Below, piece after piece: positions 1,513 through 60,833 of a stretch of DNA of 64,000 bases. The DNA comes from Oncomelania hupensis (Eukaryota; Mollusca; Gastropoda; Littorinimorpha; Pomatiopsidae): the NCBI GenBank assembly GCA_036898135.1, contig CM072525.1, positions 53,696,299 to 53,760,298 of the forward strand. The letters are read 5' to 3'. A program made the translations under genes and the position numbers. Within the stretch, counting starts at the first letter, position 1. Every line of letters starts with the position of its first letter. The notes under the pieces are model-generated. The model saw only the letters and a list, made by a program, of their open reading frames with translations, searched no databases and was not told the origin of the DNA.

Positions 1513-1760
1513 TGATTAATCATAATATGTTTTTTCAAGCGGAGCCGTACCTGGAGGAATTTAAGTTTGTTTGAAAATATTTTTCATGCAAACATCTAAG
1601 ACTAGTTTTGTTCGGCAGGTGTTTTTTTTATTCGTCTTGGGTTTCCGTGACGATCTCATCTTCGAGACTGCGCTGGATTCTTCTCTGATGTCTTGTTCAT
1701 GATCGGGGTGACTGATTCTACGATGGGACTGTACGTCAACGATGGCAACAGAAGTCACTG

Positions 1761-4700
1761 GTGGGTCACGGACAGCCATTAGATCTAACGGCGACATCGA
1801 CGTCAAGTTCCAGCTCTGATGAACTTTTCCTCCTACTCAACTTAAACCGCGTCGGAAATCATGAAGTGACTGTCCTAAGAGACTCTGGCTGCAGTGGGGT
1901 CATCGTCAGAGAAGACCTAATCGCTAAAGAACAGTTCACTGGCGATTCAAAATGGACACTCATGGCTGACAGCAAATGTGTGAAAGCGCCAGTTGCGAAA
2001 GTTCAAGTCAGCACCCCTTTCTACATAGGCGAAGTCGAAGCGGTTTGCCTGAAGAAGCCGCTGTATGATTTGATGATCGGGAACATCGATGGCGCGAGAC
2101 AACCCGACGACCCCGATCCAGGGTGGAGTCCTGCCTCAACTCAACACGTCGAAGTTGTGGAGGAGGATCCATTGCCATTTCCCGATGGAGACCTTACAGA
2201 GCTGCTACAGGACAATGTGGTTACAGCGGCTCAGCCCTGCCGACCAGAGATCGTCGTTGCTGTTACAACGAGGGCCCAGGCCAAGAGAGACAAGACGACT
2301 ACGCCACTGAAGGTCGCCGACAACTCAAAAGCTGCCATCGTGGACAGACATCAACTGATCCAGCTCCAGGAAGCTGATAGTACTTTAAACAAGTACAGGA
2401 ACCGCAAAGACCACGTGACCAAAGGCAGTGGTACGGTCTATTTTGAGGTGGAGGCCAAGATTCTGTACCAAATCTTCCAGCACCCGAGGGTCAACGGAGG
2501 GAAACCACTACGTCAAGTACTGGTACCGTTACCCCTAAGGCGCCAGGTGATGGAAGTAGCGCATGCCTCAATCATGGGAGGTCACCTGGGTATCAAGAAG
2601 ACGTCGGATATAATCCATGCGGTGTTCTACTGGCCAGGACTTCATGCGGACGTCAGCCGTTTCTGCCGATCATGTGACATTTGCCAGAAGACCATACCTC
2701 GAGGAAGTGTTCCTAAAGTGCCTATGCAGAGGATGCCTCTGATCGACCGACCTTTCAAGAGGGTGGCCTTGGATTTAATCGGCGAAATAAAACCTCCGAG
2801 TGAAGAAGGTCATCGGTGGGTACTGACTTTAGTGGACTATGCGACTCGGTACCCAGAAGCAGTGCCACTGAAGAAGATTGACACTGAAACTGTAGCAGAG
2901 GCACTGGTGGACATGTTCAGCAGACTTGGAGTGCCCGAAGAAATCCTGACAGACCTCGGGACGCAGTTCGTCTCTGACTGCATGAAGGAGGTCAACAGAC
3001 TGCTGAGCATCCGGCATTTGATTACGACACCCTACCATCCAATGTGCAACGGGCTCGTCGAGAAGTTCAATGCTACGCTGAAGTCCATCCTGAAGAAACT
3101 ATGCAGCGAGCAGCCCAGACAATGGCATCGCTACATCAACGCCTTACTGTTCGCCTACAGAGAAGTGCCGCAGGAGTCCACCGGCTTTTCTCCGTTCGAG
3201 CTGCTGTATGGAAGAACAATCCGAGGGCCGATGCACATCCTAAAAGAACTGTGGACGAAAAAAGTAGACACCCCAGAGGTGAAGAACAGTTACCAGTACG
3301 TGTTTGAGCTACGTGAGAAGCTTGAGCAGACTCTCGAGATAGCCAGAGGAAACCTGAAGAAGTCCCAGGACTGTGGGAAGCACTACTATGATCGTAGGGC
3401 TGTGAACAGGAAGTTCAAACCTGGCAACAAAGTGCTGGTGCTGCTACCTACCGATCATAATAAGTTGCTGATGCAGTGGAAAGGCCCGTACGAAGAAGAG
3501 ACCTTGGTGGGGATCAATGACTACAAGGTGAAGGTCGGCCAGCACTCCAAGATATACCACGCCAACCTCCTTAAGCTGTACGTGGAAAGGCCATCGGAGA
3601 CTGTACATGCAGCAACAGCAGCTGAGATAGACGACAGCTTTGACAGCGAGGAACTGTTGGAACTGGGAGATTTCCATAGCAAAGAATGCATCGATGATGT
3701 TAAGCTAGGACCAAGCTTGACGGAAGGTCAGAAGATGGAGCTCAAGGACCTTATGGGCGAGTTTCCCCGTAACTTCAGCGATGTCCCAGGCTCTACAACT
3801 TTGTTCGAACATGAAGTCCACCTTACTTCAGATATCCCTGTTCGATCCAAACCCTTCCCGATCCCTTTCAAGGCCTGTGAATCCTTGAAGAAAGATATCG
3901 ATGAGATGCTGAAGATGGGCATCATCAGGGAGTCCAGTTTCCCCTACGCGTCCCCTGTCGTGGTCGTGAAAAAGAAGGACGGGAGTAACAGAGTATACAT
4001 CGACTACAGGAAAGTTAATAAGATCACCGTCTTCGACCCTGAGCCGATGCCTACTGCAGCAGACCTCTTCCGCCAATTATCGGGGAGTAAAATCTTTTCA
4101 AAGATTGACCTCAGCAAGGGTTATTGGCAAGTCCCCGTGCTTCAACAGGACATACCAAAGACTGCTTTTATAACTCCTGATGGGACGTACGAGTGCCTAA
4201 GGATGCCCTTTAGCATGGTCAACAGCGGAGCTACCCTGAAGAGAGGGATGAAGAAGATGCTCAAAGGAATGGACAATGTCGTGTGTTACTGGGACGACCT
4301 GCTAGTCCACACCCAGACCTGGAGGGAGCATCTGCAGACCTTGAGGAAGATGTTTCACCGTCTTCAAGAGGCCGACCTGACCGTGAGACCCAGTAAGTGC
4401 ATTCTGGGAACTGACAACGTCGACTTTATCGGCCATTCCCTGAAAGAAGGACAAAAGGGGCTTCTAATAGAAAACGTCACCAAGATTCTGAACGCTCCAC
4501 GTCCCCAAACCAAGAAGCAGGTGCGATCTTTCCTGGGGTTTCCTGGATATTACAGGGAGTTTGTACCGAACTACTCCGCCAACACAGCACCCTTGTCGGA
4601 CCTGGTGCGGAAAGGCTGTCCTAATCAAGTGGAATGGGAACTGTCTCAAGAGAAAGCATACCAGTCTGTGCGCGACCTCCTTTCGAAGGATCCGGTGCTA

Positions 4701-5093
4701 CGACTGCCCGACACTTCCAAGGAATTCGTCTTAAGAACAGACGCAGCGAACGGAGGCATCGGCGCCATACTGATGCAAGAACACGAAGGGAAACTGTTTC
4801 CGGTCAGTTACGCCAGCAAGAAGCTGTCCGGGGCTGAGAAAAATTACTCGACCATGGAGAAAGAGTGCCTTGCCATCATATGGGGAATCCGGAAGTTCGA
4901 ACTGTACCTTCAAGGAGTGAAGTTCGTGCTGCAGACTGATCACAAGCTGTTAACTTACTTGAACTCTGCCAAGTTTATGAACAGTCGCATCATGAGATGG
5001 GCTATGTACTTGCAGAACTTTAACATGCGAGTAGAATCTATTAAAGGATCAGACAATGTTGGTGCGGACTTTCTCAGCAGAGTGTGTGAGTAA
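1761..5093 (+). CDS. pol: Gmr1-like Ty3/gypsy pol polyprotein (PR-INT-RT-RNase H)
   Basis: One unbroken frame of 1110 codons encodes the enzymes of an LTR retrotransposon. The order is aspartic protease (LRDSG at residues 39-43), integrase HHCC zinc finger (about 265-310), integrase core with DLIG, TDLGTQF and VEKFN giving the D, D, E triad, an integrase C-terminal region, then reverse transcriptase with YWDD (about 842) and RNase H (TDAANGG near 993, with E and a second D following). Integrase upstream of RT is the copia order but the domains are gypsy-like; this is the hallmark of the Gmr1 clade. All catalytic residues appear present. No gag or 5' LTR is found upstream, so the copy is 5'-defective although pol is open. 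The first ATG is used; the true product may start upstream by readthrough from gag. Confidence 0.9.
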   Translation: MGHGQPLDLTATSTSSSSSDELFLLLNLNRVGNHEVTVLRDSGCSGVIVREDLIAKEQFTGDSKWTLMADSKCVKAPVAKVQVSTPFYIGEVEAVCLKKPLYDLMIGNIDGARQPDDPDPGWSPASTQHVEVVEEDPLPFPDGDLTELLQDNVVTAAQPCRPEIVVAVTTRAQAKRDKTTTPLKVADNSKAAIVDRHQLIQLQEADSTLNKYRNRKDHVTKGSGTVYFEVEAKILYQIFQHPRVNGGKPLRQVLVPLPLRRQVMEVAHASIMGGHLGIKKTSDIIHAVFYWPGLHADVSRFCRSCDICQKTIPRGSVPKVPMQRMPLIDRPFKRVALDLIGEIKPPSEEGHRWVLTLVDYATRYPEAVPLKKIDTETVAEALVDMFSRLGVPEEILTDLGTQFVSDCMKEVNRLLSIRHLITTPYHPMCNGLVEKFNATLKSILKKLCSEQPRQWHRYINALLFAYREVPQESTGFSPFELLYGRTIRGPMHILKELWTKKVDTPEVKNSYQYVFELREKLEQTLEIARGNLKKSQDCGKHYYDRRAVNRKFKPGNKVLVLLPTDHNKLLMQWKGPYEEETLVGINDYKVKVGQHSKIYHANLLKLYVERPSETVHAATAAEIDDSFDSEELLELGDFHSKECIDDVKLGPSLTEGQKMELKDLMGEFPRNFSDVPGSTTLFEHEVHLTSDIPVRSKPFPIPFKACESLKKDIDEMLKMGIIRESSFPYASPVVVVKKKDGSNRVYIDYRKVNKITVFDPEPMPTAADLFRQLSGSKIFSKIDLSKGYWQVPVLQQDIPKTAFITPDGTYECLRMPFSMVNSGATLKRGMKKMLKGMDNVVCYWDDLLVHTQTWREHLQTLRKMFHRLQEADLTVRPSKCILGTDNVDFIGHSLKEGQKGLLIENVTKILNAPRPQTKKQVRSFLGFPGYYREFVPNYSANTAPLSDLVRKGCPNQVEWELSQEKAYQSVRDLLSKDPVLRLPDTSKEFVLRTDAANGGIGAILMQEHEGKLFPVSYASKKLSGAEKNYSTMEKECLAIIWGIRKFELYLQGVKFVLQTDHKLLTYLNSAKFMNSRIMRWAMYLQNFNMRVESIKGSDNVGADFLSRVCE

Positions 5094-24206: not shown

Positions 24207-25500
24207 ATGGCATCGATCGAGGAGGCTGAAGGAGTGTCACCGATCGCGGCTCGTACGCGTTCTCGCGTGGGTGTCACGATGGACGAGCGCACGGCGGCAG
24301 CAGCTGATACGGGAGTCACCGATCTACCTTCTGCGACCGAGCAGCGGAGATCGCCGGTCAGGTCATCGCGTCGTGGGTCAGCAGACGAGGAGTTGACGAC
24401 GTTTGAAGCCAGAGACACAGTGAGTGATCCTTTTGTGACGGGATTTGGCGCGACTGGCGGGATGTCAGCAGGCACCGACGTCTACGGAGACCAGGATCGT
24501 CTGAGCGACGCAACGAGGCTGAAGAGGTTTCGAGACCAATCCTTACCGTTCAGTCTACAAGGTCGAGGCGGCACCGACGCCGAGGACAGGACCGTTCGCG
24601 GACGAGACGCCGATGGAGAGGATCTTGAGGCTCGCCAAGCGCGAAGGACTGAAGGGTCAGGCAGCGTTAGACTACGCGATAGACCAAGCGGCTAGGGGGA
24701 AGAAGAAGCAGACTTAGACCGAGAGTGAGAGGAGAGGGAGATAAGCTGCAGGAGCGAGCCGGAAGATGCAGACGCGAGAGAGAGAGAGGCAAACGAAGAG
24801 CGAACGGGCATGGCGCCCGGGAGGTTGCGCGGGGCGCCGGGAACCGCAGGAATCGTCAACCCGAGTTCGAGACGGTCAAGCTCAGGTTACCATTCTTCGA
24901 GGATAAGGACGACCTAGAGACCTACTTGTGTCAGTTCGAGCGGTTCGCCAAGGCTCAAGACTGGAAGAAGGACACGTGGGCTATTCGCTTGGGGACCTTG
25001 CTGAAGGGGAAGGCGAGGGAAGTTTACGTTGGCTTGAACGAGGACGACTCTGCCGACTATGAGATCCTGAAGGCAGCGTTGCTGGTACGTTTCAACCTGA
25101 CGGCCGAGACGTATCGCAAGAAGTTTCGCCAGCTAAGAAGGGAGCCACCAGAGACTTTCAAACAGTATCTGCGGAAGTCAGAGTTGTTCCTGGAACGCTG
25201 GATGGGACTAGCGAACAAGAAGGCCACGTATGCGGACTTACTGGACCTGGTGTTGATGGAGCAGATGGTCAACGGTTTGACGCCAGAACTGGTCACGTTC
25301 GTGCGCGAGCGCAACCCAGCAACGGTGGAGGAGGCCGCGACGTTGGCACAGCAGTACGTCGACGCCAGAGCCGGGACCAACCTACGTTTCCCACCACGTC
25401 AACCCTTTACACCCAGGGACAAGAGCGAGGGTCGCAAGCCAGCGGGACCACGACCCAACTCGCCTGACAAGCGTGTGCTACAGCTGCGGACAGAAAGGGC
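24207..25500 (+). pseudogene. gag: gag of the 6.7-kb element, SCAN-like capsid region
   Basis: Likely start at 24207 (MASIEEAEG) in a frame running to 24695, followed by a frame change into 24725-26266. The capsid part includes FFEDKDDLETYLCQFERFAK, LGTLLKGKAREVY, ALLVRFNLT and LERWMGLA, the helical pattern shared by Gmr1-type gag and the vertebrate SCAN domain. The nucleocapsid region after about 25440 has shifted frame (a Cys/His knuckle is readable only in another frame near 25475-25515). Disabled by at least two shifts. Confidence 0.8.
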
Positions 25501-25599
25501 ACTTGAAGCGGGATTGTCCGAAACGCAGCGAGCGGAGTGGAGCAGCGTTGCGCATCTTGAAGGAGGCAGGCAAGAGGGAGATCCTCGGTTCCAGAGCCA

Positions 25600-27015
25600 A
25601 GTGGTAGTGGAAGGTGTTCCGCTGACGGCCATGAGGGACACGGGGGCTGACCTGATATGCCTTGCGGGAAGGGGAGGTTGCCAACCTCAAGTACACGGGA
25701 CGCACGCGGCGCGTAGGATTCGCCATTCGACAGTTGTCCAAGTCGCTACCGACAGCGTGGGTGCAACTGGAATCACCATTCTACACCGGGAGAGTGGAGG
25801 TAGTGGTGGTACCAGACTTGACTACCCAGTGGTGATCGGCAACTGGGCGAGGACAGAACAGCAACGTGACACAGCACTGCCAGTGTGTTCGTCGAGGGGA
25901 GCCGCAGAGTGTTGCGCTGTGCAGACGCGAGCGCAGCCAGCCAAGGAGCAAGTCGCTGCGGAACCATTGGTAGTCGGACCAAGCAAGAGCATCGTCACGA
26001 CGCCAAAGGAGATTCGTCAACTACAGTTGGAAGACGGCGAACTTGCAAAGGTGCGACAGCTAGCGGACCGGAAGGCAGGGAAGGAGAAACGTGGCAAGGG
26101 CAAGTGGCATTTGTCTGGAAGCGAGGCCTGTTGTACCGCGAATACACAGGACAGGACAAAGTGGATCACAGCCAGTTGGTGGTACCAGCCAAGCTTCGAC
26201 CGGAGGTGCTACGCGTGGGACACGACACGCCTATGGCTGAACACCGAGGAGCCAAGGGGACCCTAGATCAGGTGTGGACCAAGTACTACTGGCCAGGGAT
26301 GTGTCGCGATGTCCGGAAGTACTGTACTTCATGCGACGCATGTCAACGAACGACACCCAAGGGCGCATCAGGAAAGGCGCGTGTGCAGAGAGTCGGCAGG
26401 AACAGGAAGCCGTACCACACGATCGTGCGGAAGCGCTATGAGGAACGCCGAGCAGAACCAGAACCGACGGTGGCCGTCGTGTTGGACCAAACTGAGACAG
26501 AGGGAACCACAGATATCAGCTACCAGGGCGCTGTACCACTGATACCGCTTCAAGCGAGCGAAGGGCCAGTGGACATACGGATAGACACGGAGCTATCTGC
26601 GCTACATGAGAGAGCACCGCCGCTGGACGAGTGCGAGGTGATGTCGACCGACGACAGCCCTGAACGTAACCGACAGCATCCGCTACCATTTTCACAGATG
26701 GAAGTCGTCAAGGGTGAAGTGGAACCGATGCTGGAGTTGGGGGTTACCGAGTCATGTACATCGCCGTACAGAGCACCGATCGTGCGAGTAAGGAAGAAGG
26801 CAGAGGTCAACAAGAGGGAGGCGAGTGAGCCAGTGGTAAGGCTACCAGTATTGGAGGAGGAATTCATCTGGAGGACGGACGCACTTCAACAGTGCCAGAC
26901 TCACCCGATGGGCTATGCAGTTGCAGGCCTATGTCTTCACAGTTCGACCGATTCCAGGAAGAGACAACATAGAGGCGGATTTCCTCAGCAGATCTGACCC
27001 TGTGGAAGATTAAGT
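25600..27015 (+). pseudogene. pol: pol remnant of the 6.7-kb element
   Basis: Protease is marked by TAMRDTGADLICL near 25625. After a frame change, the integrase HHCC finger reads GHDTPMAEHRGAKG ... CTSCDACQRT (26220-26350). The integrase core is missing; its C-terminal YHTIVRKRYEER follows directly. RT retains only HPLPFSQMEVVKGEVEPMLE and SPYRAPIVRVRKK, then jumps to the RNase H start FIWRTDA and, in another frame, to an end reading GRDNIEADFLSRS. All RT and most RNase H catalytic residues are gone. Confidence 0.82.
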
Positions 27016-30560: not shown

Positions 30561-30679
30561 GCTCGTCTTCCGATAAGAAGTCTCTAATTTAAAGTGGCCT
30601 AAAGCGTATGCAAACTCTTTAGTGACCCTTACTCAGTTCGTGTCATTGGTACGTGGTTTTTTTTTATGTTCATCACTGC
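30561..30679. other. Short spacer with T-run
   Basis: Non-coding join between RTE copy D and the second Gmr1-like pol remnant; includes a T-run at 30655-30665. Confidence 0.5.
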
Positions 30680-32431
30680 TGTGCTTACATCCTGAAAGAA
30701 CTGTGGACGAAAGAAGTAGAGACCCCAGAGGTGAAGAACAGCTACCAGTACGTGTTTGAACTACGGGAGAAGCTGGAGCAGGCTCTCGAGATATCCAGAG
30801 AAAAACTGAAGAAATCCCAGGACTGTGGAAAGCACTACTATGATCGTAGGGCTGTGAACAGGAAGTTCAAACCTGGCAACAAAGTGCTAGTGCTGCTACC
30901 TACCGATCATAATAAGTTGCTGATGCAGTGGAAAGGCCCGTACGAAGTGGAGACCGTGGTGGGGATCACCAACTACAAGGTGAAGGTCGGCCAGCACTCC
31001 AAGATATACCACGCCAACCTCCTTAAGCTGTACGTGGAAAGCCCATCAGAGACTGTACACGCAGCAACAGCAGTTGAGATCGACGACAGCTTTGACAGCG
31101 AGGAACTCTTGGAACTGGGAGACTTCCATAGCTAAGAAGGCATCGATGATGTTAAGCTAGGACCAGGCTTGACGGACGGAAAGTCAAAGGTTGGAGCTCA
31201 AGGACATTATGGGCGAGTTTCCCCATAGCTTCAGTGACGTCCCAGGCTCTACGACTTTGGTCGAACATGAAGACCACCTCTACGCATCTCCTGTCGTGGT
31301 CGTGAAGAAGAAGGACGGGAGCAATAGAGTATGCATCGACTACAGGAAGGTTAATAAAATCATTGTCTTCGACCCTGAGCCGATTCCTACTGCAGCAGTC
31401 CTCTTCCGCCAATTATCGGGGGAGTAAAATCTTCTGAAAGATTGACCTCAGCAAAGGTTATTGGCAAGTCCCCGTGCGTCAACAGGACATACCAAAGACT
31501 GCTTTCATAACTCCTGATGGAACGTACGAGTGCCTAAGGATGCCCTTTGGCATGGTCAACAGCGGAGCTACCCTGAAGAGAGGAATGATGAAGATGCTCA
31601 AAGGGATGGACAACGTCGTGTGTTACTGGGACGACCTGCTAGTCCACACCCACACCTGGGAAGAGCATCTGCAGACCTTGAGGGAGCTATTTCACCGTAT
31701 GACAGAAGCTAACCTGAATGTGAGACCCAGTAAGTGCATTCTGGGAACTGACAACGTAGACTTTATTGGCCATTCGCTGAAAGAAGGACAAAAGGGGCTT
31801 CTGCTAGAAAACGTCACCAAGATTCTGAATGCTCCACGTCCCCCAAACCAAGAAGCAGGTACGATCTTTCCTGGGGTTGGCTGGATATTATAGGGAGTTC
31901 GTACCGAACTACTCCGCCATCACAGCACCCTTGTCGGACCTGGTGCGAAAAGGCTGTCCTAATCAAGTGGAGTGGGGACCGTCTGAGGAGAAGGCATACC
32001 AGACTGTGCGCGACCTCCTTTCGAAGGATCCGGTGCTACGACTGCCCGACACGTCTAAGGAATTCGTCCTAAGAACGGACGCAGCGGACGAAGGTATCGG
32101 CGCCATATTGATGCAAGAACACGAAGGTAAACTATATCCAGTTAGTTACGCCAGCAAGAAACTGTCCAGGGCTGAGAAAAATTACTCGACCATGAAGAAA
32201 GAGTGCCTTGCCATCATATGGGGAATCCGGAAGTTCGAATTGTACCTTCAAGGAGTGAAGTTCGTGCTGCAGACTGATCATAAGCCGTTAACTTACTTGA
32301 ACTCTGCAAAGTTTGTGAACAGTCGCATCATGAGATGGGCTATGTACTTGCAGAACTTTAACATGCGAGTAGAATCTATTAAAGGATCAGACAATGTTGG
32401 TGCGGATTTTCTCAGCAGAGTGTGTGAATGA
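30680..32431 (+). pseudogene. pol: Second Gmr1-like pol copy, 5'-truncated
   Basis: Closely related to 3230-5093. It starts in the integrase C-terminal region (ILKELWTKEVETPEVKNSYQ), has a stop after LGDFHS near 31135, lacks about 130 bp around the RT N-terminus, and shifts frame near 31425 and 31845. The RT YWDD and RNase H TDAADEG motifs remain readable. The protease and integrase core are absent. Confidence 0.9.
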
Positions 32432-44623: not shown

Positions 44624-44832
44624 TGTCGTGTTATGTGTTATTTTCGGTTCTAAGTTAAAGTGACGTAGTCTAAGGAAAAGTGACGTAGTCTTTTTCGCAT
44701 GGTGAGAGTCTGGTTTTGTGCCTGGTTGGACAATGGCCTTTTCAGTTTACGGGTTGTCGAAATCTCAATAAATACTTCTTGGTAAAACTACACGTTCGCC
44801 TTCGGCCTTTAATGAACGCTCGGAACACAAGT
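44624..44832 (+). repeat. 5' LTR of the gag-bearing element
   Basis: Starts TGTCGTGTTATG. Contains two AAGTGACGTAGTCT boxes in tandem, AATAAA at 44767-44772, and ends ...GGAACACAAGT. The ACA end would be the usual one, but both the adjoining PBS and the target duplication place the boundary three bases later. Confidence 0.85.
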
Positions 44833-48141: not shown

Positions 48142-48483
48142 TATTTTAAACATTTTTCAAGTTGAACTTTTGAGTTAAAGTAAAATCATCTCCCTTTTCG
48201 GTTATCACAAACTCTAACAAATAACTAGCCAGTTAACTGATTTTTTTTTTTGAAAAATCTCAAAGGAGGGAAGATGTCGTGTTATGTGTTATTTTCGGTT
48301 CTAAGATAAAGTGACGTAGTCTAAGGAAAAGTGACGTAGTCTTTTTCGCATGGTGAGAGTCTGGTTTTGTGCCTGGTTGGACAATGGCCTTTTCAGTTTA
48401 CGGGTTGTTGAAATCTCAATAAATACTTCTTGTTAAAACTACACGTTCGCCTTCGGCCTTTAATGAACGCTCGGAACACAAGT

Positions 48484-53772: not shown

Positions 53773-54223
53773 TGGCTATCTTTCAATGGAATATACGCGG
53801 GATAAGAGCAAATTATGAGGAGTTATGCTGTCTGCTGACAGAACTTCGACCTGAGGTGTTGGCAATTCAGGAGACTCTCTTATCAGACAGCCTATAGATA
53901 TCTCTGGTTACTCGTCACTAAGTTGTCCATCTTTCAGAGGCGTTTCACTCTTTATTCATAGAAACGTCCCATTTCATCCAGATACACTTAACACAAGTTT
54001 ACCAGCAGTAGCAGCCAGAGTATCTCTTTTCAAGTCCCTTACAAAATGTTCCATATATCTGACCCCATCAATAAATGTAAATAAAAATGACCTTGAGAAT
54101 TTGATCCAACAATTACCTACCCCTTTTTTGTTGTTGGGAGACTTTAATGGACGCTCTCCCATGTGGGGCAGCGATCGTAACGATACTCAAAGGAAAATAA
54201 TTGAAGACATTTTAGATTCATTG
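53773..54223 (+). pseudogene. I-like LINE endonuclease, split by the Kolobok element
   Basis: Begins MAIFQWNIRGIRANYEELCC, then LAIQETLLSD; after a frameshift, IHRNVPF and LLLGDFNGRSPMWGSDRN, which are the Asn, Glu and Asp-x-Asn motifs of an APE endonuclease. The sequence stops at the TTAA where the DNA transposon begins. The wording resembles the endonuclease end at 17980, so it belongs to the same LINE group. Confidence 0.8.
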
Positions 54224-54227
54224 TTAA

Positions 54228-54247
54228 AGGTAGTAGAAAGGCAGTTT
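54228..54247 (+). repeat. Left terminal inverted repeat
   Basis: AGGTAGTAGAAAGGCAGTTT next to the TTAA at 54224-54227; one mismatch to the right repeat. Confidence 0.95.
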
Positions 54248-54308
54248 GCTGACCCAATTATTTCTTGGTGCGAGAGTATCGCGAGACGGTTGGAAGTAGG
54301 CCTAAACA

Positions 54309-54325
54309 CGTGACGTCATCTGCAG
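54309..54325 (+). promoter_or_regulatory. CRE-like promoter motif, left copy
   Basis: CGTGACGTCATCTGCAG, containing the CREB/ATF site TGACGTCA, 76 bp before the start codon of the P2X7-like gene. It matches the inverted copy at 60600-60616 in 16 of 17 bases. Confidence 0.75.
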
Positions 54326-54401
54326 TAGACTTTCTCCGACACAAATTTTCACAGCTCAATCATCAATTGTGTACCACCGTTTTACTTTGCGTAAGCTGAG
54401 A

Positions 54402-56098
54402 ATGGCCGAATATGCAGGGTACCAGTTCGAGCCACTGGCCTCGGCCATGGAAAACATCGGCATTGAGTGGGAATCGGAGGAGAGTGAAAATGAAGAGCAG
54501 GGGGAACCAGCACATGTTGCAGACGATGCAAGGTAAACAAAGCACATTCACTCCTGGCGCTCTCTGATTGTCATGTCTTGTGATGAAAATCTTGTTCAAA
54601 TACTGCCTTGTAGTTAAATTTCTTTGACTTTGGTTTCTTCAGCGTCGTTCTCTAATTCATTGATTCAGATACTTTGAGAACCATTCAAGTGTTTAATTTT
54701 TGTTTAGGCATCGATGTTCATGTCTGCCTTTACAAGTGAAGGGGCTGCTAGTACTAGTAGTACTACTAGTCTTGTCAACATCAGTTTGAAACAGTGCAAT
54801 GTTGTAATTGTCAAACTTTGATCAGTAATAAATGTAGTGATGCATGACTGTGTAACCATCAAAGTAACGTTTCAACAACCGACTGTTATCTTGGACCTAC
54901 ATCACTGTTCCAGTACATTCTGCCAATGTAAAAAATGTGAGGTGTGGCCAGGGCAGAAAGATGTTGAAAAGAGGTGCTGCCACTTCTATCAGGAGGTTGA
55001 GTCCCACCTACAGGATGGCCCCCTTTGCATCACTGACCATGAAGGGGCATTTGTGAATTGCTTGTCAAGGTGTGTGTAAAACTCATTTCAGGCTTAATGT
55101 ACACATGCCACATAATTACAAGAAGAAATCTTTATGTGCATCTTAAAATTTCATTACATTTTATTGTATAATAATAATAATGCATTATTTATAAAACACT
55201 GACCCTCACAGAGATCAAAGCGCACACACGTATACAAACACACACCTACACACGTCTTGTTTAAAGCACAAGGACACACTTACAAGCACATTTTAATGTT
55301 ACAAAAAAGTACATTCATTACCGCATTTGGTTTGCTTATAATTTTCCCCCTTTAATTAAACACAGCACAAAATCAAAATCAACTATATATCTACCAAGTT
55401 CCAAATAAGAGTTGGTTTTTGCCTAAAGAACTTTAAACAACAAATTCTAACTATTATGGACACAATTTGTAGTGCAACACCAATTTGTTTTATCTACTAG
55501 TGCTAAAGTCTTATTATGATGTTTTTAATCACAGATACGCCATTGAAACAACAATTGTCCTGCTGAAGCAGAAACTTCGAGAATATTACAGGAATGAGGT
55601 ACAGAGAGATCATCCACATAGGTAAGTCTCAAGGTATCTGTTCTGTTACTATATGTATTAATTACCACTGTAGGAAAGAAAATAGCTATAAATATATATA
55701 TGATATATTGTTGTTTTTCTAATGAAGCACAATAAATAGTGCGAAAGCTCGGATTAAAAATCCATGGAGTTAAGAGTTTATATTAATTATTTTCTATAGA
55801 ACATCTTTTAGCCATGTTTCAGTTATTCCAGCCCAGCTTCTTTTAAAAAAAATTGGTAAAGCAGACCTGATCAGTTGACACAAGTATATACTGTGCTGAG
55901 GCAAAAATATAACATATTTAGTAAAACCTTATATTTTATTTTAGGACATACCGGCATGTTGCCTACTGCAACTTTGTGAGGTGGATTTGGGGGACAACTG
56001 GCAAGGGGAACAGGAAAGTGTTGCCAGCCTGCCTTGTGGCTGCCATACGGAAGAAGTTTCCATCACAAGAGTATGCAGGCTTCAGATATGCAGTGTAA
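54402..56098 (+). CDS. Free-standing P2X7 C-terminal (ballast) domain protein, 4 exons
   Basis: Exons 54402-54532, 54914-55069, 55535-55621 and 55945-56098 join at GT-AG sites without loss of frame and give 175 residues. An acidic N-terminus (YQFEPLAS, then a Glu/Ser-rich run to about 40) leads to a cysteine-rich segment: FCQCKKC (47, 49, 52), RCCHF (65, 66), LCITDHEGAF (82), C93. Later come YRHVAYCNFVRWIWG (127-141) and PACLVAAIRKKFP, YAGFRY at the end. This series is that of the cytoplasmic ballast domain of P2X7 receptors, which in the mammalian receptor binds zinc through cysteines and a guanine nucleotide. No membrane segment or ATP-binding ectodomain is present, so it is not a channel. 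All four exons lie inside the Kolobok element, convergent with its transposase. Role in transposition is unknown; DNA or protein binding through the zinc cluster is a guess. Confidence 0.9.
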
Positions 56099-56242
56099 AA
56101 GGTAACTTTTACTTTTATTTGTTTACTTTTATATTCAAGATATATATCATATTTTATTCTGCTTCGTCTTGAAAACCCAAGTCCCATGAAAGCCAAAGAA
56201 AGTGTAAAAGAGTAGTGCATAAACAAACTACATGTATTTGTA

Positions 56243-56274
56243 AATAAAGAGAAGATTGAACTTTTTTTTTTATT
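56243..56274. terminator. Facing polyadenylation signals of the two convergent genes
   Basis: AATAAA on the plus strand at 56243-56248 serves the P2X7-like gene. AATAAA on the minus strand (plus TTTATT, 56269-56274) serves the transposase. With cleavage 10-30 nt downstream the two 3' UTRs would overlap by tens of bases. Confidence 0.75.
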
Positions 56275-56339
56275 GTGAGTGCTGCAAAGTAAAACTAATG
56301 TAATCTAGCAGTGTTCACAGCAAAACAGATGATTGTAGT

Positions 56340-59300
56340 CTAGTTGGGGTGACTTCTGTTCCAGTTAAGTCGCGCGCAGTGATGAGCAACCACATCTGCT
56401 TTGTTTACTGGAGTTTTCGATTTGCTCAGGGGTAGGGGAACTGTGTCCAAATAATCTTGCTGGGCTTCTTTGGCCTTCTTGTAGCTTTGGTTTTCGAGGC
56501 GCAGCAGGATAACCTCCTGATACAGCTCCTGAATGTAACCTGTAGGTAGAAATAGGATTTATAACTTCCAAAACACACCTTCCATCATTTGCAATATAAA
56601 TATATATTACAGTACTGCGTTCAATATAGACAACTCTGTTATTCTTAATCTAGCATACAATTCTACATAAATCTTGCTATAAAGTTTGGAGAAAGAGAAT
56701 TTCAGAATAGATCAAAGTTAAACGTACTCCTTGTTTGTGGCACCTTGATTGGCTTTGCTACTGCCACTCCCTTGGCAGATTTAGGATGAGCAACGATCCA
56801 CTGAAGGTCCCCGTTAGCAGTGACAGCTTGTTTGCGGTCAGCATTTGCATTGAAGTGCATGGCTGCAAGGTAGAGCCTATAACACAGGAGAAAAATTTAA
56901 TCTTAGAAACTGATACAGAAGAAAGAAACATTCATACAGAAGAATAAAACAGAAGAAAAAAACATTTATATACCTAAGAGATTTACATAGAAGACAAGGT
57001 AACCATTGACATAAATTAAAAAAGGCGAAAAAATATATACTCAGCGTCTCATCATTACAAACTTGATCTAAAGAAGAAACAACATTGTGTTTAATTCTGC
57101 CAATGTAAAAATGTCATACTTCGCTTGCATCACTGAAAATGTGAAGCTGTTCAGTTTTGGGGCGAAATGACAGACTGTTGCATGATAGGATTCCAAGCTC
57201 GCTGTTTGTACGTCTGGAGACAACAGGCCAATGTCTCGCAAGAGATATTTACTGCTCACAATATTGTCCAGAGTTCTATATTGTGTTGTTCCTGGGGAAA
57301 AAAATCACCCCATATTAACGTTTTACTTCAAGATTACAAAAGGTTCATTTTATATTAAAATTTGGAAGTGAAAAAATCATATACTGAAAAAAATAACTTA
57401 TTGTCTTGTTTACCTTGTTTGATCCAGGCTCGAGGCTCCAAGTCACCATGCTCACATTTGGGGAACAAGGTACCATGACCTTCATGGATGTTAGCGACGT
57501 GGTTGCGGATAGACAACCACTTTTCCTTGATAATGTTAGTTCTGTTTGGGCCTTCTGGAGTGGTTGTAGAGCACCAGTACATATGGTTGCCAATGCTCTG
57601 TGACCAAAGAGCCAGGTGTACATTCTGACGCTTCTTCCCAGCTTTGTCTATCTTCTTACCAACACCTGAAAAAAGTGTATACAAGCCAAAAAGGTTGTGA
57701 CAATGCATAGTACATGTATGGTCAGTAAACTGAGTGTAAGCCAAGTTTAGACGGACACACTGCATGGTGTATCATTATGCATGCAATTAAAATAATAAAT
57801 CATATTGACAAAAGCACCTTACCTTTTGCCATGTGCCAAATGTCAAAGTGATGAGTGATGCTTGGTTCATTTTCTTGCATGTGTTTCTTTACACTAACAT
57901 GTCGATCAGTGATGAGATGACTGATTCTGACTTCTTCTTTCACTTTTCTCAGCCCTTTTTTGAGGCCTTCAAGTTCCATGGCATGAGAGTTTTTCACCTG
58001 GCTACTCTGTACAGACACATTTGGGACCTTCATTACATTCATTGTGCAATGATTGTGAAATTCTGAAGAAGATTTTATATATACAAAAGACTATTCAAAA
58101 ACAAACACAAGAAGTATAAACATTCCTCTTTTAATAGTCTTGAAAATTTTTGGCCTTTAAGGTTTCTTCAGTCAGTGATTGAGTGCTAGATATAACCTCA
58201 TGTTCTTTCTTTAGCCCATATTTGCACCCACGTGAAGCTTTAAGTTGTATTCTGAAAGTGTGAGTATTGTTTTGTGAAAGTATACCTGGATTAGTTCACT
58301 GTGCAAAACTTCAGCTGTTTCTGCATCCATCAGAGTGTAACTGCCATACTTTGCGCAGTGTCCTGGCGAGTCGCATCTGCCATCCCCTGCAAGTTTGACT
58401 GATCTTCCTCTCCTTGCTGCAAAAAGGCGCTGCTGCCATACTTGCCACACATTTCTCACTGCAGGCACCAGATATGATGACTGAATGCTGTTGTAAGTCT
58501 GTAGGCTGAAACATGCTATGTCTGCCTGCTTCAAGGCATTAATGAGTCTACTAGGTGAACATGCTGTGAAAAATGTAGCAGCTGCCATAACCAGATTACC
58601 TAGAGGTAGTTTTTGTGAGCAGGGCTGAGAGCGCCAGGTGTACTTGTGGCCACAGGTAGCAAGGCTGCACTCACAAGAGAACTCTACACTAGTGCCACAT
58701 TCCCCTTTCTTTATCACTTTACATGGCTGATGACACTTTTGACACTTACTCAGTAAGGTCTCAAGCTGACTCTCAAACACTATATATTTACGCTGTTTGA
58801 ATGGATCCACAGAGTGAAGGTCTTCAGTCAGTTGGCGTCTGGAAAAGAAAAAAAGCCTACAGGATTTGCTCATTTTTCATGTCTAATCCCTTAATTGCAT
58901 TAGTTACTTACGTATTACGTTTTGGCAAGCAAGTTTAAAAAATAAAGATTTTGATTTGTTTCTAATATTAATTTTTTTTGTTTTTTTTAACAGTATGTGT
59001 GCAGGGCACTCAAAACTGACAAAGTACAATTTTTTCCTTATACGCAGGGAGAAACTCAAAAATAAGTACAAGTTTTACCTTGGAGTAGTCTGCTGTGATT
59101 GATATTGCCACTCTGGATCATCTGCAGCTGTGTTCTCTTCCTCTACATGCTCTTCTAGCTCGGGCCTGCCACAGCAATCAGTTATCATCACAAACCATGA
59201 AACCAAGCAATTAGATCTTTTAACATTATTACTATTATTATTATAAACAACATGTGTCTGTTGGAGATTTGTGCATTATAATTGGAATTTTTTCTATTTG

Positions 59301-60541
59301 GAAGTTAGAAAGTGAATGCATTTTTTCAACCCTTACCCGACCAGATCAGTTTGGGTGAGCTTGGAAGACATGTGAGGAGCAATCTCTCTTGCCTCGGTGT
59401 TTTCTGGCTCAGTGCACTCAGTCTGCACTTCACAGCAAGCAATTGCTTTGTGCAGTGTTTGCTGCTTTGTATTCACTACGATCTGAAAATCACAAAGCTT
59501 GTTATCACACATATGACATAACACGCACACACACACATAAAACGTGTTTTGATTTTTTTAACCACACAATTTCCTTCAAATTCACTAATTTTACAGTTAC
59601 AGTCTGATACAAGTTTTGAAAGACTGAAACCGGTTACATGTACAATGATATGAGTTTATGCAACAGTAAGCCAACTCTGATGCAAAATGATATACCGGTG
59701 TAACTTGGATCCCAATGTCTTGCATGCAAGTAGGTGGTGGAATGCTGGCTGTGCTACTAGTGGTAGCACAGGTGTCATCAGAACACATGGGCATAGCACT
59801 AGCACCAGCATCCACGAGTTCCAGACTGGGAGGTGTTGCAGTCTGCAAAAGTGTCCCAAGTTCCTGTGTAAACAACAAATGAAGGTGTTAAAACTAAAAC
59901 TCTAATAATAAAGAAGGGTAAAAAAATCTTTGGTATTATTTATATTCTTTAAATTTTATTTATTTATTTTTGGTTATATTTTTTTTTAACATGCAGAAAC
60001 CATTTACTTAATTAGTTTGCAAATGATGTATTCAGACATGCACAAACACATTTCCCCCTTTTCCCTACCTATGAAGAACATTTTCTACAAATTCCCCAAC
60101 CTACAAGTGGAATTTTTCTTTAAATAAGATATATGTGACAATACTTACTTGTGTCTTTTGCTTTTTCTTTGACACAGCTGATCTCCTCCTTGTTGCTTCT
60201 TCCTCTCTCTTTCTCTTGCTTATATTGTACTCAAAAATAGTCGGCACTGCATTATCAACCAACTTTGGTAAAAATTTTAGGGTTTTAATGCTCGTGTCCG
60301 TCAGTGCCAGACGTGTTCTTTGCGTAAAAGATTCCGGCGCGAAATGCCGGGAACACAACACGTCGTGTTTTGCTGGCATCCACAGCATCTTTTTCCCTGT
60401 TTTGGGGCATCTCACCTCCCTGTTAACTTTCAAAGCCCATTCTCGTTTTAAATCTTTGTCCGAAGGAAATTTATGAAATGAAAATTGGCTTCCAGGCACT
60501 TGCAGCTCATTACATTCGCCAGCAGCGCATTCTTTCGGCAT
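56340..60541 (-). CDS. THAP-domain Kolobok-type transposase, 10 exons, 767 residues
   Basis: Minus-strand exons 60541-60149, 59863-59696, 59482-59337, 59165-59079, 58838-58286, 58006-57823, 57665-57414, 57291-57120, 56876-56728 and 56539-56340 join in frame at GT-AG borders (2304 nt with stop). Residues 1-103 are a THAP zinc finger: C5, C10, C63, H66 and the AVPTIF box at 98-103; this binds DNA, presumably the element ends. A basic stretch follows (107-130). Residues 190-260 are acidic and Gln/Thr-rich. A Cys-rich block (297-327) precedes the catalytic region, with candidate acidic residues D417 (AGDGRCDSPGH), D483 (ITDRH) and E628 (SLESYH). The C-terminus has a helical Leu/Glu stretch. Start at 60541 is chosen because MPKEC supplies the first zinc ligand; an upstream in-frame ATG at 60607 exists. 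Catalytic residue assignment is inferred from spacing. Confidence 0.9.
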
Positions 60542-60599
60542 CGCGGTGATAAGCAGCAGAACGGGATGTTTACTTTCGCTATTCCCCTCATCTTTCACC

Positions 60600-60616
60600 C
60601 TGCACATGACGTCACG
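60600..60616 (-). promoter_or_regulatory. CRE-like promoter motif, right copy
   Basis: Minus strand CGTGACGTCATGTGCAG, 58 bp before the transposase start codon; inverted partner of 54309-54325. Confidence 0.75.
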
Positions 60617-60809
60617 ATGCCTATGCGCATGCGCGCGAGAATATTTGAGACTTGGATAAGCAGACGACGCTTGTTGCTCGCTCGGCGAAACTTTTTGCTA
60701 AATTATATTTTTTGCAGAAAATATTGGCAGTTGATTAGGTATGCAAACAGTTTTCCGGAATAACATGGATGAACGAGACGTATACTGTGTGTGCATTCTG
60801 AAACCTTTA

Positions 60810-60829
60810 AAACTGCCTTTCTATTACCT
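60810..60829 (-). repeat. Right terminal inverted repeat
   Basis: Minus strand AGGTAATAGAAAGGCAGTTT, followed on the plus strand by TTAA (60830-60833). Confidence 0.95.
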
Positions 60830-60833
60830 TTAA

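Follow-up and report, generated by a model that had tools for sequence, protein, structure and literature searches.

A stop-free Kolobok transposon of the snail Oncomelania hupensis encodes a THAP transposase and a P2X7 ballast-domain protein, its probable accessory subunit

Why would a snail transposon encode, beside its transposase, a protein that resembles the cytoplasmic tail of P2X7? The question is raised by a 64,000-nucleotide stretch of Oncomelania hupensis DNA (GenBank assembly GCA_036898135.1, contig CM072525.1, positions 53,696,299 to 53,760,298, forward strand; hereafter the window). Here, a Kolobok-type element of 6,602 bp (54228-60829, counted from the first base of the window) is flanked by TTAA and holds two predicted genes inside its ends; Pfam and PDB searches of the predicted proteins matched the THAP domain and the P2X7 intracellular domain. 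Our findings favor, on balance, a model where a stop-free, TTAA-flanked Kolobok transposon encodes a THAP-DDE transposase together with KolX, the ballast protein, the latter likely an accessory subunit, built around zinc, within the transposition complex. Elements of the Kol0 lineage of Kolobok have been described as encoding a transposase and KolX (Kojima and Bao 2022, PMC9587614). Thus, the transposase/ballast pairing was already known, and the statement of an earlier sequence-only reading of this locus that no description of it existed is overturned; the element is a new example of a published Kolobok/KolX kind.

That reading had placed TTAA on both sides of 20-bp inverted ends with a single mismatch, and repeat and pattern searches confirmed it (table 1). 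When the end was searched as a pattern (R at the differing base, up to three mismatches), only these two sites were retrieved in the 64 kb, and none of 100 shuffled sequences contained it even once. The termini, AG on the left and CT on the right, fit the 5'-RR...YY-3' of the Kolobok superfamily, unlike piggyBac. Long terminal direct repeats of the KolobokP type (approximately 450 or 660 bp) were not found, the longest direct repeat between 54200 and 60900 being 27 nt. The two genes are convergent and 241 bp apart; since they face each other, each element end lies upstream of one of them. A piece of a non-LTR retrotransposon endonuclease occupies 53855-54223 on the plus strand (Exo_endo_phos_2, E 2.2e-9), and the Kolobok copy is either immediately next to this piece or within it.

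Both exon models are predictions, with splice sites chosen by homology and consensus, and all 12 introns are GT-AG. The transposase model runs on the minus strand between 60541 and 56340 in ten exons (767 codons plus stop), and that of KolX on the plus strand in four (175 codons plus stop). Both frames are free of stops, and the ten-exon THAP transposase and four-exon ballast protein proposed from the letters alone are thereby upheld. Just 3' of KolX, a relic of the last transposase exon stands inverted relative to the intact gene: 72 nt could be aligned with one gap, scoring 49 where 300 base shuffles gave at most 27, and one frame reads ILLRLENPSPMKAKE, with a stop four codons later. This relic may be a trace of past recombination between two related elements.

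The THAP domain of the transposase is recognized by Pfam (PF05485, E 2.1e-11, 44.9 bits, cut-off 23.9). Residue conservation was counted in 60 rows, the window and 59 of 120 listed homologues (138 found), over those rows with a letter at the position concerned. The DDE triad is nearly invariant: D417 in 58/59, D483 in 58/58, and E628 in 57/58. Between the second D and the E stands a DxxH (D504 and H507, each 58/58), followed before the E by H566, H571, C581, and H583, also 58/58 each, a set that we read from the alignment as the putative counterpart of the published Kolobok zinc finger. After the first D, where KolobokP/E/D are described as having an invariant second CCHC finger (PMC9587614), the snail transposase has C420, H425, and C426, which may or may not correspond to that finger; across the alignment they are variable, being kept in 38/59, 47/59, and 18/59 rows, respectively. 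The label "Kolobok-type" given to the element earlier is supported by its TTAA, its AG...CT ends, and these DDE, DxxH, and zinc-finger residues. With Kol0 elements (type Kolobok-1_XT) it shares the TTAA duplication, the RR...YY ends, the DDE, DxxH, and zinc finger, and KolX as second gene; they differ in that a single snail copy is considered here, whereas the hosts named in PMC9587614, in a list not stated to be complete, are vertebrates, annelids, cnidarians, and sponges, with no molluscs. Kol0 membership is suggested by KolX and general Kolobok features, rather than by placement in a tree with Kolobok-1_XT.

KolX was earlier read as carrying the P2X7 C-terminal domain, and the 175-residue protein matches P2RX7_C (PF20478) at E 2.7e-12 (47.4 bits, cut-off 23.5). 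In the Pfam search, with E up to 10, P2RX7_C was the only domain recognized, and neither a P2X channel domain nor a known DNA-binding domain was detected. KolX is published as having the P2X7 ballast fold, with similarity to human P2X7 over residues 476-595, the seven cysteines included (PMC9587614). The seven zinc cysteines are retained in the aligned snail protein, as are R546, H547, Y550, and R578 of the P2X7 ballast (PDB 6u9v, 8tr5, 9e3m) and the FP and GF near the C-terminus; conversely, the window protein is channel-less and stands alone, bears an N-terminal YxFEP motif, and is without R574 and K583. Counts for KolX refer to 17 rows, the window and 16 of 23 homologues, which are named KolX by homology, their transposon context unseen; the excluded sequences matched in their C-terminal part alone (P0003, P0137, P0138, P0139, P0141, and P0142) or had 102 residues (P0143). 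A structure alignment (A4) included 15 of the 23. The YxFEP-like motif occurs in 16 of the 17 rows, in 11 strictly. An equivalent of H547, a residue of the P2X7 GDP site, is shared by KolX proteins of molluscs and jellyfish, contrary to a published claim of its absence beyond deuterostomes.

How might the two proteins act together? Each element end would drive one gene inwards, and the transposase would bind the ends through its THAP domain, cutting and joining at TTAA. KolX would hold two zinc ions in its fold, and the N-terminal YxFEP-like motif, borne by an acidic linker, might dock it on the transposase or on a host factor, which would allow it to help in end pairing or in target joining. 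At a later time, according to a published inference (PMC9587614), the ballast module was captured by a P2X4-like gene, the fusion giving origin to P2X7. Several points weigh against KolX as an accessory subunit. The role is argued from the conservation of KolX and from reports that the lineage has retained it, and the KolX passages of PMC9587614 assign it no function in transposition; moreover, other Kolobok lineages have different accessory genes or none (PMC9587614). The docking site is a guess, and the motif is loose in five of the 16 rows that carry it. The ballast fold was modelled on the homologue P0002 (53% identical), not on the window's own protein, and that model has a mean pLDDT of 66.9, falling below 50 in residues 1-55, which hold the YxFEP, and 180-189. 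Finally, the transposase homologues were compared without genomic context, so that KolX adjacency is not visible in them, and it is the published record, not our own data on a single copy, that excludes a recent acquisition of cargo.

The main rival has KolX as a regulator instead of a subunit, one that curbs transposition or holds down transcription from the ends, so that the element persists in its host; we regard this as possible, at a clearly lower probability. Truncated P-element products are known to act in either manner. Being encoded by a separate gene that points towards the transposase gene, KolX could be regulated independently, and a role in transcription regulation has been hypothesized for nanor, a stand-alone ballast protein (PMC7016195); the lack of a recognized DNA-binding domain in the Pfam search of KolX argues against the regulator reading.

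A further reading, which we hold unlikely, concerns the guanine nucleotide. The P element and THAP9 share with the snail element a THAP domain joined to an RNase H-fold transposase. Their target duplication is 8 bp, and they are not known to be accompanied by KolX. They differ in a GTP-binding insertion domain within the transposase; the P-element transposase depends on GTP, and the insertion that binds it falls between beta5 and alpha4 of the RNase H fold (PMC7776569). The ballast of rat P2X7, in turn, holds GDP through R546, H547, R574, R578, and K583 (PMC7016195), and KolX could supply the nucleotide to the transposase in trans, replacing the insertion domain. Three of these five contacts are kept in the window's KolX and two replaced: R546, H547, and R578 each persist in 16 of the 17 rows, window included, yet R574 is R and K583 is K in 0/17, the window having V156 and S165. 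Next to A567/L569 of the pocket, two positions are basic in KolX (R148 in 17/17; K149 as K or R in 15/17), unlike in human and rat P2X7. The kept residues may nevertheless serve folding only. GDP in the P2X7 ballast is also described in PMC9859053, where the functions of its nucleotide site and of its zinc site are given as unknown. Among the 50 matches listed in each of the fold comparisons made with the transposase, none was a P-element structure, a result that speaks neither for nor against the GTP reading. In its widest and quite speculative form, which we doubt, the P2X7 ballast would have begun as a transposition cofactor module: KolX would provide a THAP-DDE transposase, in trans, with zinc and guanine nucleotide as a detached counterpart of the P-element GTP domain, and the GDP of the P2X7 tail would be a leftover.

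It is very improbable that the ballast gene of this copy was picked up from the host as cargo and travels along without contributing to movement, since, although one copy was examined and stand-alone ballast genes are annotated in many animals (homologue searches; PMC7016195), KolX is reported across animals as the second Kol0 protein, which is taken there to explain such stand-alone proteins (PMC9587614). The earlier view of the ballast protein as a standard second gene of the lineage is likewise backed by print (Kojima and Bao 2022) and not by a survey of our own.

The pairing of KolX with a transposase also touches on other observations. The nanor/ZCD proteins resemble the snail KolX in being stand-alone ballast proteins, but are treated as host genes in PMC7016195; nanor is, according to Kojima and Bao, a likely domesticated KolX (PMC9587614). 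In animals ranging from sponge through molluscs to sea urchin, ballast genes were reported with two closely linked markers, called ancestral synteny, and an Ixodes protein has a "TAHP" domain (so spelt; taken here as THAP) before the ballast (PMC7016195). With KolX as second gene of Kol0 elements, the synteny markers may be transposase, and both they and the Ixodes fusion may reflect a Kolobok transposase travelling with KolX. The pairing of transposon and ballast, though published, seems little noticed; among the matches listed in open-licence literature, no further paper linked the two. A stop-free copy with both genes offers a concrete protein pair, and the ends, for probing the role of KolX, and the answer would be relevant to the unexplained zinc and GDP sites in the tail of P2X7.

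Table 1. Features of the Kolobok element and its flanks (window positions)
Feature	Positions	Strand	Evidence
TTAA, left target-site duplication copy	54224..54227	.	read in sequence; within 24-nt inverted arm
Left terminal inverted repeat, 20 bp, AGGTAGTAGAAAGGCAGTTT	54228..54247	+	repeat and pattern searches
KolX predicted exon 1: YQFEP motif, acidic stretch	54402..54532	+	splice model
KolX predicted exon 2: CxCxxC, CC, CIT zinc cysteines	54914..55069	+	splice model, alignment
KolX predicted exon 3	55535..55621	+	splice model
KolX predicted exon 4: RHxAY, last zinc cysteine, IRxxFP, stop	55945..56098	+	splice model, alignment
Transposase last-exon relic, inverted relative to intact gene, just 3' of KolX	56129..56200	+	alignment to exon 10
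Transposase predicted exon 10: C-terminus, stop	56340..56539	-	splice model
Transposase predicted exon 9	56728..56876	-	splice model
Transposase predicted exon 8: catalytic E628	57120..57291	-	splice model, alignment
Transposase predicted exon 7: H566, H571, C581, H583 (putative zinc finger)	57414..57665	-	splice model, alignment
Transposase predicted exon 6: catalytic D483, DxxH 504-507	57823..58006	-	splice model, alignment
Transposase predicted exon 5: catalytic D417	58286..58838	-	splice model, alignment
Transposase predicted exon 4	59079..59165	-	splice model
Transposase predicted exon 3	59337..59482	-	splice model
Transposase predicted exon 2	59696..59863	-	splice model
Transposase predicted exon 1: THAP domain, residues 5-103	60149..60541	-	splice model, Pfam
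Right terminal inverted repeat, 20 bp, AGGTAATAGAAAGGCAGTTT (60829-60810)	60810..60829	-	1 mismatch relative to left
TTAA, right target-site duplication copy	60830..60833	.	read in sequence

Elsewhere in the window, an open frame of 1,125 residues (1716-5093, plus strand) has integrase domains (residues 270-442) ahead of the reverse transcriptase (751-908) and of RNase H (999-1102). Gypsy elements usually show the opposite order, and the arrangement is reminiscent of Gmr1-type elements. Pieces similar to this frame were seen by eye at 30626-32431. An open frame at 24683-26266 (plus strand) matches the SCAN domain (E 2.7e-12) and is followed by an H2C2-type integrase stretch, also recognized by eye (25870-26997). 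A 20-bp tandem unit, TCTAAGRAAAAGTGACGTAG, recurs nearly identical and in the same direction at 44649-44691 and 48300-48342, approximately 3.65 kb apart, and may belong to direct terminal repeats of a different element.
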